Source: Bacteroidota bacterium
GTDB lineage: Bacteria > Bacteroidota > Rhodothermia > Rhodothermales > UBA10348
Direction: 5' to 3'
Assembly: GCA_022567305.1 (NCBI GenBank)
Contig: JADFHF010000036.1
Coordinates: forward strand, 1-39,464
DNA: 39,464 nucleotides
The notes under the pieces were generated by a model, which was given only the letters and a program-made list of their open reading frames with translations, was not told the DNA's origin and made no database searches. Made by a program: the position numbers and the translations under genes. Shown piece after piece: positions 14,121 to 36,546 of the stretch; positions within the stretch are counted from its first letter, which is position 1, and each line of letters starts with the position of its first letter.

Positions 14121-15338
14121 ATGGATTCGAACGATTTTTCTACTCTCGAAGCTCCAGAGTGGATGCTCGATGAGCTAACGCACAAGCCTGCTTTGCCGGG
14201 TCGCAGCTATTCGAAAATATATTCTGATACCCAGGATCAATTAAAAAATTCTATTCTTCCCTATAGTGATAATCAGGAAAAGAAAGAAAGAAATCTTTTT
14301 TTGACTCCCCAAGAAAGGGATGCTATAAAAATTCCAGAGACAAAGTGGCTAGTTGACAAGTTGATTCCACTAGGTAGCCTGGTCCTTCTTTCTGGGCAAC
14401 CAAAAGCATCTGGAAAGACTACGTTCGTTTGCCACGCTATGAACTCGATCGTCTCAGGTACTCCGTTTCTGGGCCTTCAAACAACTCAATCCTCAGTCGT
14501 GTTTGTTAGTGAACAATCATGGACCAGTCTTCGCGATGGATACGTCGTTCCATCAGGATTAGTACACCAGAAAAGCATCTTTATTACGGCCGGGCATGAG
14601 GTAAGCCATCTATCTTGGTCTCGTCTGATTGACGAAGCGATCAGTCAGTGTCTTGATGTATCAGCAAATCTTTTGGTTATAGATACATTCCCTGCATTTG
14701 CAGGGCTAGAAGGCACGGCGGAAAATGACAGCGGACCGATAATTAAGGCGTTAAAACCACTTCAGGATGCAGTTTCTAGATATGAAATAACCATTCTCCT
14801 TGTTCATCACGATCGAAAAACCGGGGGAAACGTATACGATGCCTCAAGAGGTTCGGGCGCACTCAATGCTTCTGTAGATGTTCTATTTCAATTGCGTCGC
14901 CAAGGACCTAATGACCAGTCAGGTTATAGGATTTTGTCAAGCGGCGGACGATTCCCCCGTATTCCGAGTGAGATAGTTATCTACTTCGACGGCCATAGCT
15001 TTAAGTACATCGGAACGCAATCTGACGCCAGAGCTGAATCGGCACGAAATTTAGTGATGGAGATTATCAATGAGAATTCGCCAGAAGCTCTCTCGAGAGA
15101 GCGAATCTATTTTCTCCTGGCAGCTGATGGAGTTGAATTGACGCCGAAAATCATTAATAAAGCTCTAACCGATCTGGTAACCAATGGACGAATCACTCAA
15201 TTAGGTTTAGGTAAGAAGGGCGATCCGTTCACATACCGTGTCGTAGACGCTAACGTAGAGAATCCATCAGAATTCTATTCTTTCCAGGATCTATCTATAG
15301 GAAAAGAAATGAATTCTAAAACTCAGCCATATGCGTAG
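14121..15338 (+). CDS. AAA_25/RepA-type replicative helicase
   Basis: A 405-residue RecA-fold ATPase. Walker A is GQPKASGKTT (residues 92-101) after KLIPLGSLVLLS; Walker B is LLVIDT (184-189); then LLVHHDRKTGG (227-236) and RGSGALNASVDV (243-254), the loop patterns of RepA/AAA_25 hexameric helicases of plasmids, phages and integrative elements. The C-terminal 100 residues (ARNLVMEIINENSPEALSRE, then NKALTDLVTNGRITQLGLGKKGDPFTYRVV) look like a winged-helix DNA-binding domain. Codon use is A/T-rich relative to the chromosomal right half, as expected for acquired DNA. It probably replicates the element after excision. No primase gene is seen. It is convergent with the integrase. Confidence 0.8.
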   Translation: MDSNDFSTLEAPEWMLDELTHKPALPGRSYSKIYSDTQDQLKNSILPYSDNQEKKERNLFLTPQERDAIKIPETKWLVDKLIPLGSLVLLSGQPKASGKTTFVCHAMNSIVSGTPFLGLQTTQSSVVFVSEQSWTSLRDGYVVPSGLVHQKSIFITAGHEVSHLSWSRLIDEAISQCLDVSANLLVIDTFPAFAGLEGTAENDSGPIIKALKPLQDAVSRYEITILLVHHDRKTGGNVYDASRGSGALNASVDVLFQLRRQGPNDQSGYRILSSGGRFPRIPSEIVIYFDGHSFKYIGTQSDARAESARNLVMEIINENSPEALSRERIYFLLAADGVELTPKIINKALTDLVTNGRITQLGLGKKGDPFTYRVVDANVENPSEFYSFQDLSIGKEMNSKTQPYA

Positions 15339-15493
15339 GCTCCCTACTCATCTGAAAGGAGGCCGTTAACTTCGTCTAGCCCCCCGAACTGGTACAAAGT
15401 TGAGAAAAGTAATTCTCATTCATTCCGGTATTACTCCCAGCGAAAGTCTTGTGACATTTGCGAGCACGGCACGACCTAATAAATGGTTAATTA

Positions 15494-16750
15494 CTAAGAA
15501 TCTATTCGCTTGAGCACCCGCACGAGTTCCTCGTCGAACATCCCTGATCTGAGGTTGTGTAGGTAGACCTGAGTCGTCTTTGCATCCTTATGGGCGAGCG
15601 TCTGCTGGATGCGCTGAATAGGCAGATTGCTCTCATCCATGAAGGCCGCCCAAGAATGGCGAGCCATGTGCGTTGTGAGCCGGGTTTCAATCCCACACTC
15701 GTGGGCCAGAGTTTTCAGGTGCTTGTTGATGAACGATATATTCTTTTTTCGCTCTTTGAAAGCCTCCTCCGTACCTGGTCGAATGCGCTTAGGCATGATT
15801 GGAAAGATGTATTCATTCGGACCAATGTGCGGCCAGCCGTAGTAGCGCAGGATTTCTTCCGGTTTTCCCAAAAGCGGCATCGAGAAGGAGGGGTCATCCG
15901 TCTTCGTCATCGTGTATTCGATACGCCAGACGCCGCGTACACGCCGGATATGAGCGCCCACCAGGTGCATGACGTCCGAGACGCGCATACCGGCGGCGTA
16001 GAAAGCAAAGATGAAGTAGTTTCGCACATCGTTCAGGTTGCCATCCTCGAGCTCTATGTCTTCGAGTTTCCAGATCTCTTCGATCGTGAGATGCTGACTT
16101 TTTGCGCGTCTCGTTTTTAGGCGAAGATGAAAGAACGGATTATTCTCCTGTGGAAAGAGACCCTCCTTGATGGCCACATATAGGACCGAACGGATAAAGT
16201 TCAGATTCTTCGTTACCGTATTCGGCTTATTGTTATGAACCTTTACGAGGTAGGTGTGAAAGCCTCGAAGGAAGGACACGGTGAGCTTGTCGAAGGAGAG
16301 ATCATCTTGGTGGAGAGTCGTGCGCGTATAATCGCGCAGTTTCTTCAGCGCTGAGCGATACGCATCAGCTGATCCAAACTGAGAGCGGTCGCGGAACTCG
16401 TCGATTCGTTTCTGAAAATAATCGAAGAAGGAAGGCGCCACAGGCTTCTCTGTTCGCCGCAGAAGCTCCTTCACGACATGAGTTGAGAGTGTGCCATCCC
16501 GAAGAAGAACGTCGAGTACAGCATCCTCTGCCGCCTCTACGACGCTCTTAAGATATAGGTTAAGTTTGTGGTGTTGCCGGTGGGTCTTGCGGACCTCCTG
16601 ACGCGCCGCATTCCAGTGACGAGCGTGCATGCGCACGCCCTCGATCGCGATCGTCGAGCGCTGGTCTTTGTGACGGATAACCAGGTAGAGGGGGACGTGT
16701 CCATTGGAGTCCTTCTTGGAGCTCCATGGAACGATTCTTACTTTGGCCAC
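15494..16750 (-). CDS. Tyrosine recombinase / phage integrase
   Basis: A complete 418-residue integrase of the Bacteroidota mobile-element type. Residues 1-90 are an arm-binding domain (VPLYLVIRHKDQRSTIAIEG), 105-200 a SAM-like core-binding domain (SFFDYFQKRIDEFR...TVTKNLNFIRSVLYVA), and 220-415 the catalytic domain. The catalytic set is complete: R256 (GMRVSD), K283 (TMTKTD), H361 and R364 (HMARHS), H387 (LAHKDA) and the nucleophile Y396 (TQVYLHN). It should excise and integrate the element. It faces inward from the right end, with its start about 170 bases before the mntR-like gene, so the right attachment site is expected between 16751 and about 16920. No matching left repeat could be found by eye. 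Confidence 0.92.
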   Translation of the reverse strand: MAKVRIVPWSSKKDSNGHVPLYLVIRHKDQRSTIAIEGVRMHARHWNAARQEVRKTHRQHHKLNLYLKSVVEAAEDAVLDVLLRDGTLSTHVVKELLRRTEKPVAPSFFDYFQKRIDEFRDRSQFGSADAYRSALKKLRDYTRTTLHQDDLSFDKLTVSFLRGFHTYLVKVHNNKPNTVTKNLNFIRSVLYVAIKEGLFPQENNPFFHLRLKTRRAKSQHLTIEEIWKLEDIELEDGNLNDVRNYFIFAFYAAGMRVSDVMHLVGAHIRRVRGVWRIEYTMTKTDDPSFSMPLLGKPEEILRYYGWPHIGPNEYIFPIMPKRIRPGTEEAFKERKKNISFINKHLKTLAHECGIETRLTTHMARHSWAAFMDESNLPIQRIQQTLAHKDAKTTQVYLHNLRSGMFDEELVRVLKRIDS

Positions 16751-16922
16751 GCGAGGGGAACGTTGCTAGTAGGTCGAAATAGGTGACGGCCAAGGTGACG
16801 CTTTTTCACCAGAATCGCAAAAGGGTTCGCAGAGTCTCAGATACGAATCGTCGATTTTACATATATTGACTGCGAATTCCGGCCAAACCATACCCAAACA
16901 AGGTGGGGCGGATAGAAAGGGC

Positions 16923-17606
16923 GTGTCCACCCAAGTTTCAAATCCTACCATGCTTAGTCAAGCCGTAGAAGATTATCTCAAGACGATTTACAGGCTCCAT
17001 AGCGGAGATCCGGTCTCGACGACCGAAATCGCCAGAACTATGGACGTTTCGTCGGCTTCCGTTACGAATATGATCAAACGGCTTTCGGGCATGGGGTTGG
17101 TCACGCACAAGGCTTACCACGGTGTAACACTCACGAATGCCGGTCGAAAAATTGCGCTTGAGATCATTCGGCACCATAGGCTTCTCGAGACCTATCTCAA
17201 GGAGATTATGGGATACGATTGGCGGGAGATGCACAACGAGGCCGAACAACTCGAACATCATATCTCAGAAGAATTTGAGGACCGCCTCGATGAAATGCTG
17301 GGGTACCCTACCCACGATCCACATGGAGACCCCATCCCTGCCCGGGACGGTAGTGTTCCTCCCTCATCCGCAGATCCTCTGACCGCGTTTTCAGAAGGCG
17401 ATTCTGTCCTCGTTCACAGGCTAGCTGATTCAGATCCGTCATTGCTTGCAAGGCTTGAATCGATTGGTATCTTACCGCGCGTTCGACTTACACTGGTCAA
17501 CAAGCCCACCGACGACGGACCCGTCACGGTTCGCGTAGGCAAGATTGAGCATGAACTGTCGTCTAGCGATGCACGATCGGTCTACGGTGTACCAACCAGA
17601 TCCTGA
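16923..17606 (+). CDS. DtxR/MntR-family metal-dependent repressor
   Basis: About 228 residues. The N-terminal winged helix is clear (QAVEDYLKTIYRLHSGDPVS, then EIARTMDVSSASVTNMIKRL and GLVTHKAYHGVTLTNAGRK). It is followed by the dimerisation/metal-binding helices (IIRHHRLLETYLKEIMGYDW, EAEQLEHHISEEFEDRLDEM) and GYPTHDPHGDPIP, the family signature, then a C-terminal FeoA/SH3-like domain. It senses Mn or Fe and represses uptake or activates efflux genes. The start is uncertain: GTG 16923 is used because AAAGG precedes it closely; ATG 16950 and TTG 16866 are alternatives. No metal transporter is adjacent; the ZIP/multicopper-oxidase pair is 17 kb away. It is the first chromosomal gene right of the element. 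Confidence 0.88.
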   Translation: MSTQVSNPTMLSQAVEDYLKTIYRLHSGDPVSTTEIARTMDVSSASVTNMIKRLSGMGLVTHKAYHGVTLTNAGRKIALEIIRHHRLLETYLKEIMGYDWREMHNEAEQLEHHISEEFEDRLDEMLGYPTHDPHGDPIPARDGSVPPSSADPLTAFSEGDSVLVHRLADSDPSLLARLESIGILPRVRLTLVNKPTDDGPVTVRVGKIEHELSSSDARSVYGVPTRS

Positions 17607-33022: not shown

Positions 33023-34015
33023 TCATTTGCAAAAGACGCCTCGAAGGGTATCCAGGCTCACGTTTCTTCCGGAGATGAACACGACAATGGGTCCGTCCGG
33101 CACCGTGGTTTCTTTCGTCTCCGTCGCCTCCTTGGCGTCCGAAAGATCATGCTTGAGACAGGCCGCCACGGCAACCGCGGAGGATCCCTCGATAATGTGC
33201 TGATGTTGGTCATACATCCAGATCATCGCCTCACGGATCTCATTTTCTGAGACAAGAGCGACGTGGGGTTTGAGGTGCTTTAGAATCTCAAACGTTTTGT
33301 TGCCGAAACCACCTTCGAGACCGCTCGCCAGGGTCTCTATTCCTGGGAGTTCCGTTACGGCAGACCCTTTCTCCATCGATAACTTGAAGGAGGGAGATTG
33401 TGCGTGTTGGCAGAGCACGAATTGGTAAGAATCTAGGAGCTGCGATACCGTGAATGCGAATCCCGCACTGTGGCCGCCTCCGCCAGCCGGCATCACGAAT
33501 GTTTTTGCATCCGGAACCTGGTCCAGTACTTCCAGAGCAACCGTGCCGCCATTTCCGGCCATGATGCGCTCATCGTCATACGCGCTGAGGAACGGTAGCT
33601 GTCGACGCTCAGTCTCTTCGAGCGCCCATCGCTCGGTATCATCGTACCCTACGAATTCGGACACGACGACATCAGCTCCTAGTTCCACCATGGCCCTGTA
33701 TTTGATCTGATCCACTCCGGAGGGGATGTATATCGTCGCCGACATTCCAAGTTCATGCGCGGCATGAGCTACGGCCCGGCCATGATTTCCTGCAGAACAG
33801 GTCGAAATGTGTCCCACGCCCTCGGCTTTCAATTGAGACATCGCGAAGAGGGCACCCCGATACTTAAAGCTTCCCGTAATCTGGAGTTGTTCGAGCTTCA
33901 GCCAAACAGGAACGCCGAGTCTCTTACTGAGGACCGGAGAATACTCAACAGGCGTTTTTTGAACTCGGCCACTGAGCGCCTCAGCCGCATCGTGGACCAA
34001 ATCGAGGGATAGCAT
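33023..34015 (-). CDS. PLP-dependent threonine/serine dehydratase-like enzyme
   Basis: 330 residues from ATG 34015; the frame extends further upstream but the family begins at MLSLDLVHDAAEALSGRVQK TP. The PLP lysine is K51 in ITGSFKYRGA, the phosphate/substrate loop is STCSAGNHGRAVAHAA, and the PLP phosphate loop is PAGGGGHSAG, where the common GGGGL reads GGGGH. The close is IIEGSSAVAVAA...IVVFISGRN. It has only the catalytic domain without an ACT domain, like catabolic threonine dehydratase or serine racemase/3-hydroxyaspartate ammonia-lyase. It deaminates a beta-hydroxy amino acid; the exact substrate is unresolved. The ZIP gene lies 20 bases upstream on the same strand, probably one transcript. 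Confidence 0.88.
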   Translation of the reverse strand: MLSLDLVHDAAEALSGRVQKTPVEYSPVLSKRLGVPVWLKLEQLQITGSFKYRGALFAMSQLKAEGVGHISTCSAGNHGRAVAHAAHELGMSATIYIPSGVDQIKYRAMVELGADVVVSEFVGYDDTERWALEETERRQLPFLSAYDDERIMAGNGGTVALEVLDQVPDAKTFVMPAGGGGHSAGFAFTVSQLLDSYQFVLCQHAQSPSFKLSMEKGSAVTELPGIETLASGLEGGFGNKTFEILKHLKPHVALVSENEIREAMIWMYDQHQHIIEGSSAVAVAACLKHDLSDAKEATETKETTVPDGPIVVFISGRNVSLDTLRGVFCK

Positions 34016-34035
34016 TACGGTTTGATCGAATTTAC

Positions 34036-35232
34036 CTATACAAGAAGCGCCGTAACATACATGATGGTAATTCCAGTCATCATGCCCATCATATTCGACC
34101 AGGATAACCAGTTTGACTTCTCGTCTCCCGTTCCCAGGAGACGACTCACTTCGACGATGACCTGAAGAATTGCGCCGGCGCCGACGGCGAAGAAAAGTAC
34201 CGCGAGAAATGGCGTGTACGAGAACCCCCCGATCCATGTACCGATGATAGCGGGACCACCGGCGATAACGGTGAGTGCGATCAGTTTTCCAAAGCCAGGT
34301 CTATCCACTGCCATCGGAGCGCCGATTCCTACACCCTCGGTGACGTTGTGAAGCACAAATCCGATCACTAGAAAACTGCCGAGTGCCGCTTCACCGGAAG
34401 CGATGGAAACGCCCACAGCCATTCCTTCCCCAAGATTGTGTAACCCGATTCCAATCGAGATGGCGGTCGCTATCCAGAGTCTACCTTTCGATGTCGAGCG
34501 ATCACGAACACCCTGGCGCCTCCCGATAAGAGTAAGCATCATGTAACTCAGGATGGCGATCAGGAAAACAAGCGGAAGTCCATTAAAAACCTTCGGAACT
34601 TCACCGGCGAACTCGACGCCTTCGAGAATCGTATCGAACAAAAGAAAAACAAGAAGGCCCACCGTGAGCGCGAGCACAAAGTCGAGGGCCCTTTTCTTCA
34701 TACTTTGAAGAAGGGGAAACCACATAAGTCCAAGTCCCACAGGAACTATTCCCACAAAGAATCCTACGAGACCTAGAAGGAACCACCGGGTGATATCTGA
34801 GGGCGGCGTGGCAACGGCCACCTCAATCGTATGGTCGAACGTGGCCCCAGAACTCGTTAGCAGTCGAAGTTCGTGGGCCTCCCCCTCCACCCAGTGATAG
34901 GGTATGGTAATAGTGGCGCGTCCGAGGCGCGGCAGTTCGTTGGCAGGCGAAATGTTGAACGACCAATACGCCTCATCTACCAGCACCTGCGCAATCGTAA
35001 CCGTCTCCGGGCCGGCATTGATGACGTGTATGACAATCCCTTCACTATTCAGGATCACGCGCTGGACAGAAAGATCCTCAACCGGGGGTTGATTCCCCGT
35101 CAGGCTTTCCATCGGATCGAGCTGAATGAAAAGAACCAGCACGGCGGTGAGGAGAACGAGCGGAAGAATCAGTTGTCCTACTTTCAGCAGACTGGAGCGG
35201 GTTTCACCGGACTTATTTATAGGCTCATTCAT
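34036..35232 (-). CDS. ZIP-family metal transporter with an extracytoplasmic N-terminal domain
   Basis: A 398-residue membrane protein. Residues 20-38 form one membrane helix (LILPLVLLTAVLVLFIQL), then about 110 residues of Ig-like beta sequence (VQRVILNSEGIVIHVINAGP, ATITIPYHWVEGEAHELRLL) face the periplasm, then seven to eight helices of a ZIP transporter. The two metal-binding helices carry HNLGEGMAVG (about 265) and HNVTEGVGIG (about 294), the ZIP signature for Zn, Fe or Mn. The added N-terminal domain is not in standard ZIP proteins. The multicopper oxidase gene is 39 bases upstream on the same strand, so the two are probably one operon. Confidence 0.85.
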   Translation of the reverse strand: MNEPINKSGETRSSLLKVGQLILPLVLLTAVLVLFIQLDPMESLTGNQPPVEDLSVQRVILNSEGIVIHVINAGPETVTIAQVLVDEAYWSFNISPANELPRLGRATITIPYHWVEGEAHELRLLTSSGATFDHTIEVAVATPPSDITRWFLLGLVGFFVGIVPVGLGLMWFPLLQSMKKRALDFVLALTVGLLVFLLFDTILEGVEFAGEVPKVFNGLPLVFLIAILSYMMLTLIGRRQGVRDRSTSKGRLWIATAISIGIGLHNLGEGMAVGVSIASGEAALGSFLVIGFVLHNVTEGVGIGAPMAVDRPGFGKLIALTVIAGGPAIIGTWIGGFSYTPFLAVLFFAVGAGAILQVIVEVSRLLGTGDEKSNWLSWSNMMGMMTGITIMYVTALLV

Positions 35233-35271
35233 AGTCCAGATTTTCGGCTCGTGACGTGACCTTAAAATGGG

Positions 35272-36414
35272 TTACGTGATTTGGCGGGATCCACCGTCCA
35301 CATCGAAAAATCCCATCCATCCCAGTTCAGCAAACTCACTCTGGTGGGCATGAAACATGAATGAGCCCGGGTCGAAGCCCTCATACGAAAATTCGAGAAT
35401 TCCCCGCTGCCCCTGACACTGCATAATCGTATCGACTGTTTTCAATGTGGGTTCGAAGGTCGTGCCGTGGTCATAGTAGTCGAAAAAATTCCCATGCAAA
35501 TGAAAGGAGTTGACGGGATCGAACTCGGTGGCGTTTGCCAGATAGATACGCTGTTGAGCCGCGCTCTCAATCGGGATACCGGGACTCAAATAGGCAAATG
35601 CGACTGTATTGGCCGCATACACCTCATTGTCACCATCGAAATTGGTATCAAAACCATTCATCACCATGACCATCTCGTTTACCGCCTGGCACTCTTCGTA
35701 CTCGTGATTCCGTCTTTTCGCCTGTTCACGATCAAGCCCCTGATACCGCTCCGGATCGGGATCAATAATGAACGCGCCATATAGCCCCTTGTGGATGTGA
35801 CGCTTGAGCGGAATGCCATGGCAGTGGTAGAAGTGGCAACCGAACGGTCGGGCATCGAACTCATAGATAGTGGTTTCGCCTACCTCAATAAGACCGGCAC
35901 CAACGCCCGGCACCCCATCCATCTTTGCCTGATGAATACCATGGAAGTGGATCGTATGGGGATGACTTCCGGCGTTTACAAATCGAACGCGTATTCGATC
36001 GCCTTCCACACATCGAATGGTAGGCCCGGGTACGCGACCGTTAAGGATCCAAGCCGGAAAAAATACACCCGGTGCGATCTCAATCTCCTGGTCCTGAGCA
36101 ACAAGTTCGTATTCACGAAGCCGTTGTCCATTCGGCAATCTGCTGACGGTTCCGTAATCGAAATCATATAGCAGGTCCATCGGATCAAAACCGTTCCGTT
36201 CGTGATTGACCGTTCCAACCGTGTGCATCACTCCAGTGGGCGGCCCCAGGTGAGGCACGTCGCCATTGGACGAGAGAGCGGCAGCGTGATTGAGAGGGCG
36301 TTCGACGAGCGATGACATCCCGGCAACGCCGACGAGTCCAACCACTCCTCCGGCTCGTAGCCACTCACGCCTGGACAGACGAGTGCCTTTGAAATCGTTC
36401 TTTGGGTTACTCAT
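35272..36414 (-). CDS. Tat-exported two-domain multicopper oxidase
   Basis: A 380-residue copper oxidase. The N-terminus has a Tat signal (SRREWLRAGGVVGLVGVAGM, RR at 15-16). Domain 1: HPHTIHFHGIH (H156, H158) and GCHFYHCHGIPLKRHIHKGLYG, with the HCH at 197-199 giving type-1 copper in this domain. Domain 2: NSFHLHGNFF (H305, H307) and FMFHAHQSEFAELGWMG (HAH at 355-357). The layout suits the two-domain, nitrite-reductase-like class that forms trimers. It oxidises metal ions or phenols in the periplasm with oxygen. Placement directly before a ZIP transporter suggests metal oxidation coupled to transport, for example of Fe or Mn; substrate is inferred, not shown. Confidence 0.9.
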   Translation of the reverse strand: MSNPKNDFKGTRLSRREWLRAGGVVGLVGVAGMSSLVERPLNHAAALSSNGDVPHLGPPTGVMHTVGTVNHERNGFDPMDLLYDFDYGTVSRLPNGQRLREYELVAQDQEIEIAPGVFFPAWILNGRVPGPTIRCVEGDRIRVRFVNAGSHPHTIHFHGIHQAKMDGVPGVGAGLIEVGETTIYEFDARPFGCHFYHCHGIPLKRHIHKGLYGAFIIDPDPERYQGLDREQAKRRNHEYEECQAVNEMVMVMNGFDTNFDGDNEVYAANTVAFAYLSPGIPIESAAQQRIYLANATEFDPVNSFHLHGNFFDYYDHGTTFEPTLKTVDTIMQCQGQRGILEFSYEGFDPGSFMFHAHQSEFAELGWMGFFDVDGGSRQIT

Positions 36415-36546
36415 AAATAAAGGTCTTCCCCGTTGCGCGGATCACGAACGGTTTATTGGGTGATTTCCGGCTGAAACGAGCATTTTCCGATCATGTTTTC
36501 ACACAATCATTAAGATTTAGCCAAGACTAAACTTTTTAGCATTTTC

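Follow-up and report, generated by a model that had tools for sequence, protein, structure and literature searches.

An MntR-linked pair of a two-domain multicopper oxidase and a ZIP-type carrier with an archaellum-like domain: a candidate manganese importer assisted by oxidation

In yeast, the Fet3/Ftr1 system has an exported oxidase that cooperates with a membrane metal carrier. The bacterial multicopper oxidases considered here are annotated "copper oxidase" or similar, and we know of no agreed substrate for their family. An archaeal precedent for pairing with a carrier comes from Nitrososphaera viennensis, where the gene for the oxidase MCO1 (NVIE_000600) neighbours that for a zinc/iron permease (NVIE_000590), as PMC7785015 describes; this confirms an earlier statement that archaeal ZIP genes can adjoin multicopper oxidase genes. 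Near the family considered here stands LMCO3 of Rhodococcus opacus R7, which PMC8556283 describes as 57% identical to the solved oxidase 3GDC, encoded near zinc-transporter genes, and proposed to act in plastic breakdown. A literature search gave no paper that we recognised as describing a unit of MntR-type regulator, oxidase and ZIP carrier. Here, we analyse a stretch of 39,464 nucleotides (the window; contig JADFHF010000036.1 of assembly GCA_022567305.1, from a Bacteroidota bacterium of the Rhodothermales) that contains an oxidase gene followed, after a gap of 39 nucleotides, by a gene for a ZIP-type carrier. A preliminary description of the window had named this pair, and both open reading frames are found where it placed them, on the minus strand:

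35272 to 36414, minus strand: first gene, a two-domain multicopper oxidase of the twin-arginine translocation (Tat) type, 380 amino acids, with Pfam Cu-oxidase_3 and Cu-oxidase_2; matches 7rab with 504 bits
34036 to 35232, minus strand: second gene, a ZIP-type metal carrier with an extra N-terminal module, 398 amino acids; its predicted model matches BbZIP with Z 20.7

The reading that we favour is MntR-controlled manganese uptake by a ZIP whose immunoglobulin-like (Ig-like) domain docks the oxidase. We give it about an even chance. It is carried by the gene pair itself, the domain, the motifs, the co-occurrence of domain and oxidase, the association with a regulator and its operator, and one natural fusion. 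From these we infer transcription as an operon, docking, manganese as the metal, the direction of transport, and a redox step.

The two genes would form one metal-uptake operon, most likely for manganese. Under scarcity of the metal, a palindrome that lies before the oxidase gene would be vacated by the MntR-type regulator, and both genes would be transcribed. The oxidase would fold, exit via Tat, and sit at the outer face of the membrane, where the ZIP would offer it a dock, namely the Ig-like domain that an extra helix holds. The ZIP core would carry divalent metal inward, while the oxidase would alter the redox state of metal at the mouth of the carrier. For this step we prefer a model in which the oxidase oxidises a rival metal, for example Fe(II), or cycles manganese, and so might aid manganese entry, to one in which Mn(III) or Fe(III) is handed to the carrier. 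The usual traffic through ZIPs is of divalent metals into the cell, and for a ZIP under MntR control the import of Mn(II) would be the simplest case.

The pairing is the firmest part of this argument. A scan of named genomes with patterns inside the Ig-like domain kept 80 of 105 relatives, four of whose loci (L014-L017) had already been found among near genomes. By title, the 80 loci belong to Bacteroidota, Chloroflexota, Gemmatimonadota, Acidobacteriota, Bacillota, Cyanobacteriota, Pseudomonadota, haloarchaea, and others. An oxidase gene lies upstream on the same strand in 78 of them, and the other two (L017 and L048) are cut by contig ends. The association, 78 of 78 loci uncut by contig ends, is far beyond chance; domain-bearing ZIPs that mostly lack the oxidase, the finding that the preliminary description held to be fatal to its proposal, did not appear. 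The oxidase stop and the ZIP start, as chosen by script, overlap by 4 nucleotides in 17 loci. Two genes of an ATP-binding cassette transporter (ATPase and permease, named by eye) separate oxidase from ZIP in L033 (4017-5831).

Broader samples agree. Among 100 near genomes, a strong ZIP match occurs in five, including the window's own; the oxidase adjoins in four, and the contig ends in the fifth. Within 394 genomes of the same phylum, the ZIP (E-values to 1e-20) is found in three, and an oxidase above 500 bits lies adjacent in the same three, all other oxidase matches being at or below 106 bits; the near genomes with the pair are not among the ZIP matches of this sample. Another sample gave 22 domain-bearing ZIP matches in 20 genomes, of which one per genome was checked. 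Plasmid records match the ZIP 150 times (E-values to 1e-5) and the oxidase 155 times (E-values to 1e-20), with nearly equal counts by genus; 37 of each are from Pseudosulfitobacter. The weakest of these oxidase matches (27-32% identical) are other oxidases, and at the weak end of the ZIP matches seen stand a domain-less ZIP, a fragment, and a Deinococcus fusion. No relative of the pair was found among viral contigs, and carriage by phage was rejected.

The carrier can be divided as follows:

35119 to 35196, minus strand: extra N-terminal membrane helix, residues 13-38, as predicted
34804 to 35091, minus strand: Ig-like domain, residues 48-143, the proposed oxidase dock; predicted strands with a FlaF/FlaG-like fold
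34039 to 34794, minus strand: eight-helix ZIP core, residues 147-398; predicted model with a match to BbZIP
34423 to 34440, minus strand: HNLGEG, metal motif of transmembrane helix 4 (TM4); H, N, E and the last G in 81 of 81 aligned ZIPs, fourth position G in 76 and A in 5
34333 to 34350, minus strand: HNVTEG, metal motif of TM5; T298 in 81 of 81 aligned ZIPs

The Pfam Zip model (PF02535) gives this protein 27.9 bits, under its gathering cut-off of 35.1, which is a detection threshold rather than a defining ZIP trait; the subfamily is divergent. Its predicted model (81 sequences; mean predicted local distance difference test, pLDDT, 88.6) aligns over the core with BbZIP (7z6m; Z 20.7, root-mean-square deviation 3.2 over 223 residues), and on this model the carrier has the eight-helix ZIP fold. 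The two HNxxEG helices of the preliminary description are present (residues 265-270 and 295-300), with their metal-binding H, N and E kept in all 81 aligned ZIPs, and its Ig-like extra domain holds up in the model as a beta sandwich at about residues 48-143. Prolines are usual in ZIP motifs. BbZIP and ZupT share the eight-helix core with the window ZIP (the ZupT model gives 40.8 bits, below its cut-off of 252), but in the latter the motif prolines are replaced (HNxGEG, HNxTEG) and the Ig-like domain is extra. The same genome has an ordinary ZIP too, on a different contig.

The Ig-like domain follows the extra helix and precedes the first core helix. Its best structural match is the soluble domain of archaellum FlaF (residues 47-138; Z 11.9, root-mean-square deviation 1.8 over 91 residues), and FlaG, with Z 11.8, has the same fold. 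In FlaF and FlaG, an N-terminal helix likewise precedes the domain. These are stator proteins of the archaellum, of course, and a common fold is no sign of a common function. The domain is conserved on par with most core helices (mean 0.62, against 0.72 for TM4 and 0.78 for TM5). Binding of metal by the domain itself was ruled against: no His, Cys or Met in it is conserved at 85% or more, the position of H120 being His or Cys in 79%. Conservation without an invariant ligand would suit a docking surface.

Two features of the oxidase matter for what follows:

36367 to 36372, minus strand: twin-arginine pair of the export signal, residues 15-16; of 73 aligned oxidases, 71 keep the first R and 71 the second
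35821 to 35823, minus strand: Cys198, proposed type-1 copper ligand of domain 1, with H153, H206 and axial L211; C198 in 73 of 73, L211 in 66 of 73

Both Cu-oxidase_3 and Cu-oxidase_2 exceed their Pfam cut-offs. The 73-row alignment, which includes the window and leaves out duplicate loci and oxidases that are cut by a contig end or lack a start codon, has H153, H156, H158, H197, C198, H199, H206, H307, H355 and H357 invariant. Axial position 211 is Leu in 66 rows and Met in 7. Only domain 1 has a Cys ligand (C198); domain 2 has HLHG (H305, H307) and HAH (H355, H357) without Cys. The two-domain signature is found in all 73 rows, with one X at H305. We take the division into type 1, 2 and 3 ligands from an assumed analogy with the numbering of copper nitrite reductase. 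Read from these residues, the protein is a two-domain multicopper oxidase with its type-1 site in domain 1. The arginine pair is accompanied by a hydrophobic stretch, as in a twin-arginine signal, and 65 of the 73 rows have RRx[FLVIMW] inside the first 60 residues. Thus, the copper motifs and the predicted export signal of the preliminary description are both in place. In Cytobacillus (L127:6075-6251), a tatA-type gene directly follows the ZIP gene, fitting Tat export of the oxidase.

The closest solved relatives are 7rab (504 bits), which its title gives as a dodecameric oxidase of M. hydrothermalis, and 3gdc (343 bits), from Arthrobacter. They resemble the oxidase part with TM-scores of 0.97 and 0.96, normalised by target. 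Both were solved alone, and their entries name no carrier partner. A second oxidase in the window's own genome (L119; G000:C109) is 46% identical, over domain 1 only.

If the Ig-like domain is the dock, then domain and oxidase should be gained or lost together. In the phylum of a Natrinema genome (392 genomes), the oxidase (E-values to 1e-30) and domain-bearing ZIPs (403-425 amino acids) occur in the same seven genomes, two of which were known beforehand from the named-genome scan. Ten other genomes hold 11 domain-less ZIPs of the subfamily (312-334 amino acids) and no oxidase; an MntR-type gene lies directly upstream of all 11. One weak match (269 amino acids, L147) and one fragment (L149) are left over. 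In 301 Chloroflexota genomes, 19 domain-bearing ZIPs were found, one being the known L018; the oxidase adjoins 18, and L170 is at a contig edge. A further fragment that covers the domain (G906:C10) stands outside this count. Eleven of 48 weaker Chloroflexota matches were read. One (L183) is cut by a contig end and uninformative; none of the ten domain-less ZIPs has an oxidase in flanks of up to 1.5 kb (the rest of those genomes was not searched), and an MntR-type gene adjoins all ten. A Natronorubrum plasmid ZIP (L123) also lacks the domain, with no annotated oxidase within 5 kb. These stand-alone ZIPs of haloarchaea and Chloroflexota are of the same core subfamily as the window ZIP and have an MntR-type neighbour, but neither Ig-like domain nor adjoining oxidase. 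The co-conservation that the preliminary description proposed to check is there: where contigs allowed, domain-bearing ZIPs have the oxidase, and domain-less ZIPs of the subfamily have no separate adjoining oxidase gene.

One natural fusion belongs beside these counts. On a plasmid of Deinococcus sp. KNUC1210 (NZ_CP092195.1; L128:3668-5479), a protein of 603 residues joins a ZIP core, without extra helix or domain, at its C-terminus to an oxidase of another type. No other plasmid record matches this protein over more than 80% of its length. Its oxidase part also resembles rhizobial and other oxidases with a DUF4396 annotation, perhaps a second membrane partner. Joint occurrence of domain and oxidase, with one fusion besides, is as expected of a docking domain. 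In these data the oxidase is an accessory: it occurs only alongside the Ig-like domain or, in the form of another oxidase, as a fused substitute for that domain.

One may ask, of course, whether the oxidase supplies the carrier's substrate, a hand-over that the preliminary description suggested and that stays conjectural here. In such a model, as in Fet3/Ftr1, Fe(III), Mn(III) or Cu(II) made by the oxidase would go straight into the ZIP core. The gene pairing and the fusion speak for such channelling, as does the axial Leu of the type-1 site, a feature of high-potential oxidases. ZIPs are carriers of divalent metals, however, and the domain-less Chloroflexota ZIPs, with MntR-type neighbours and no adjoining oxidase, have nearly identical motifs (HNLSEG, HN[IV]TEG). 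Since they keep these metal motifs, oxidation seems dispensable for the core. In haloarchaea, the motifs of the domain-less ZIPs diverge more (mostly HSIGEG, HNVMEG), which leaves channelling some room. We consider it unlikely. Two lineages retain cores that have an MntR-type neighbour but no adjoining oxidase, and for this reason we rank removal of a competing metal, or cycling, above channelling. Given these domain-less sisters, oxidation is probably unnecessary for transport by the ZIP core.

The case for manganese comes from the regulator and its putative site:

36516 to 36531, no strand assigned: putative MntR-like operator palindrome TTTAGTCTTGGCTAAA, 102-117 nucleotides upstream of the oxidase start
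16866 to 17606, plus strand: MntR-type regulator with a FeoA domain, the proposed regulator of the pair; the only match in the genome over the DtxR-family (PF01325) cut-off

The palindrome is one of five perfect sites in the genome of 3.76 Mb, where the reversed pattern gives 21. The regulator scores 216 bits with the MntR model NF047407 (under its cut-off of 350) versus 99 bits with DtxR, and its metal-site residues, EDY and AEQLEHH, fit the manganese-site pattern of MntR (D8, E99). We aligned 49 regulator rows: 43 from loci (one gene being present as two halves, and two of the regulators lying more than 4 kb off), five from plasmids, and the window's. The first metal-site position is D in 31, N in 15 and a gap in 3; the second is E in 40, D in 8 and a gap in 1. 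Neither is ever Met or Cys. The metal site of MntR is set against the Met/Cys pattern of DtxR in PMC4805248, and the aligned residues of these regulators follow the former. Beside the window's regulator (14121-16750) are an open reading frame for an AAA-type ATPase and a tyrosine-recombinase-like one, named by eye, perhaps an integrated element.

Among relatives, 40 of 76 loci (L018-L093) have an MntR-type gene at most 1.5 kb from the pair; MntR-type gene, MntR-like box, or both are found in 52. The box wTTAGn6CTAAw occurs within 300 nucleotides upstream of 22 of 73 operons, whereas the remaining sequence of these loci would predict 0.33. TTTTGAn4TCAAAA stands upstream of 12 of 73 and nowhere in the other 776 kb; both reversed controls give 0. 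Because the motifs were first noticed in these same loci, this test of enrichment is not independent. Loci added afterwards offer a check: the full box immediately precedes 9 of the 11 haloarchaeal domain-less ZIPs, its core precedes a tenth, and in 10 of the 11 the core lies near the start of the regulator gene. The ten domain-less Chloroflexota loci have no such box. Five of the first six plasmid regions have an MntR-type gene divergent to the oxidase (with one gene between in Deinococcus QL22). Ten further regions have a DtxR-family regulator beside the unit in Arthrobacter (troR), Sinorhizobium (mntR), and Natronorubrum (where there is no oxidase); seven have none. An Nramp gene, with an MntR-type gene, adjoins the pair in L056 and L059, and one of two Nramp genes in the window's own genome has a box with one mismatch just upstream. 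The link to an MntR-type regulator, raised in the preliminary description, is thus supported by the palindrome and by the neighbours of relatives. Riboswitch control was rejected, as no Rfam riboswitch was found in 23 scanned loci (the window and other loci lie outside that scan).

These neighbours bear on copper as well. The oxidase might turn Cu(I) to Cu(II) for import by the ZIP, as proposed for the neighbours MCO1 and permease of Nitrososphaera viennensis, where NVIE_000600 and NVIE_000590 are both described as mildly up under copper limitation (PMC7785015). Some plasmid copies of the pair do lie among copper genes. The MntR-type genes beside 40 of 76 loci point elsewhere, however, and one CsoR query matched nothing in the 76 loci (CueR was not searched). 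Copper uptake is, in our judgement, improbable.

Several observations weigh against the reading of manganese uptake through a docked oxidase. As to docking, an Ig-like domain without an invariant metal ligand fits a dock but proves none. The window pair, modelled as one fused chain from a 102-row alignment, gave a predicted TM-score of 0.59, a low-confidence linker, and no interface score. Core-only trees join the haloarchaeal domain-less and domain-bearing groups, with support of 100/100 in the first and 100/99 in a second from which 34 rows (near-copies, distant outgroups) were removed and to which 16 were added. They require two changes of domain, with the root and long branches unsure; since these changes are few, genome counts overstate independence. 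The missing interface score and the few changes on the tree would suit mere operon partners, that is, a domain and an oxidase inherited together that never touch. However, in haloarchaea the two are absent jointly where the ZIP core and its MntR-type neighbour persist, and a covalent fusion of ZIP and oxidase exists. We regard mere partnership as unlikely, though the likeliest of the rivals.

As to the metal, 24 of the 76 loci have neither MntR-type gene nor box. The window's regulator is encoded 18 kb away from the operon, and even the best box in front of its own gene, with three mismatches, is poor. The second Nramp gene of the genome lacks a close box, and none of the four other perfect boxes has a recognised manganese gene beside it. 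In the cyanobacterial, bacillar and actinobacterial plasmids that were opened, ArsR-type regulators, P-type ATPases and cation efflux genes adjoin, and in Microvirga a Fur-family gene stands beside the unit. The metal may therefore differ there. Such neighbours suggest a resistance unit, in which, under heavy-metal stress, the oxidase would detoxify Cu(I) or Fe(II) and the ZIP would replenish an essential metal that competes. Its presence on plasmids fits: 131 ZIP and 130 oxidase plasmid records match over 80% of length (many being near-copies, a few oxidase ones distant), and several copies lie beside efflux ATPases and ArsR-type regulators. Yet 61 of the 76 loci, many with flanks cut short, show no match to P-type ATPase, ArsR, or resistance-nodulation-division queries, and MntR-type control suggests scarcity, not excess. 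We hold resistance to be rather unlikely.

Other neighbours may be noted. A pyridoxal phosphate-dependent (threonine-dehydratase-like) gene, 33023-34237, is directly downstream of the window ZIP, and two near relatives (L003/L015, L004/L016) retain it next to the pair; its other matches are weaker and away from the pair (L007, L026). A Rieske (2Fe-2S) gene lies downstream of the pair on three actinobacterial plasmids (L094:9877-10338, L120:6053-6472, L121:6188-6469). In Rossellomorea (L050:2536-2876), a transfer-messenger RNA gene is about 2 kb upstream of the oxidase.

How, then, does the unit compare with what is known? LMCO3 of Rhodococcus opacus R7 is near the family of the window oxidase. 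With a carrier as regular partner and a predicted manganese regulator, these oxidases gain a testable role, and the joint absence of domain and oxidase renders docking itself testable by binding assays. Pseudomonas putida GB-1 cells that oxidise manganese are reported to hold more intracellular manganese than non-oxidising cells (PMC3798386), a result that fits a link between oxidation and uptake but concerns other enzymes than the window oxidase. The thaumarchaeal MCO1 and permease also combine a two-domain, axial-Leu oxidase with a neighbouring carrier and mild induction by metal limitation (PMC7785015). There, however, the metal is copper, the passages of that paper on the pair mention neither a link to MntR nor an Ig-like domain, and the likeness is drawn from description. 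If the favoured reading is true, coupling of oxidase and carrier reaches beyond iron and Ftr1 to ZIP carriers, and cells would have a new reason to oxidise manganese or iron at their surface.

The window unit shares with yeast Fet3/Ftr1 the pairing of oxidase and carrier. It differs in that Fet3/Ftr1 has the Ftr1 permease, a three-domain oxidase and no MntR-type control, while the window carrier has a predicted ZIP fold. Tentatively, and with somewhat less than even confidence, we propose a class, previously without a name, of manganese importers assisted by redox chemistry: a ZIP under MntR control whose archaellum-like Ig domain serves as the socket for a Tat-exported oxidase of its own. Bacteria and haloarchaea would carry it on chromosomes and on plasmids, and its socket and oxidase could be lost together or replaced by covalent fusion. 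This class would be a convergent counterpart of Fet3/Ftr1.

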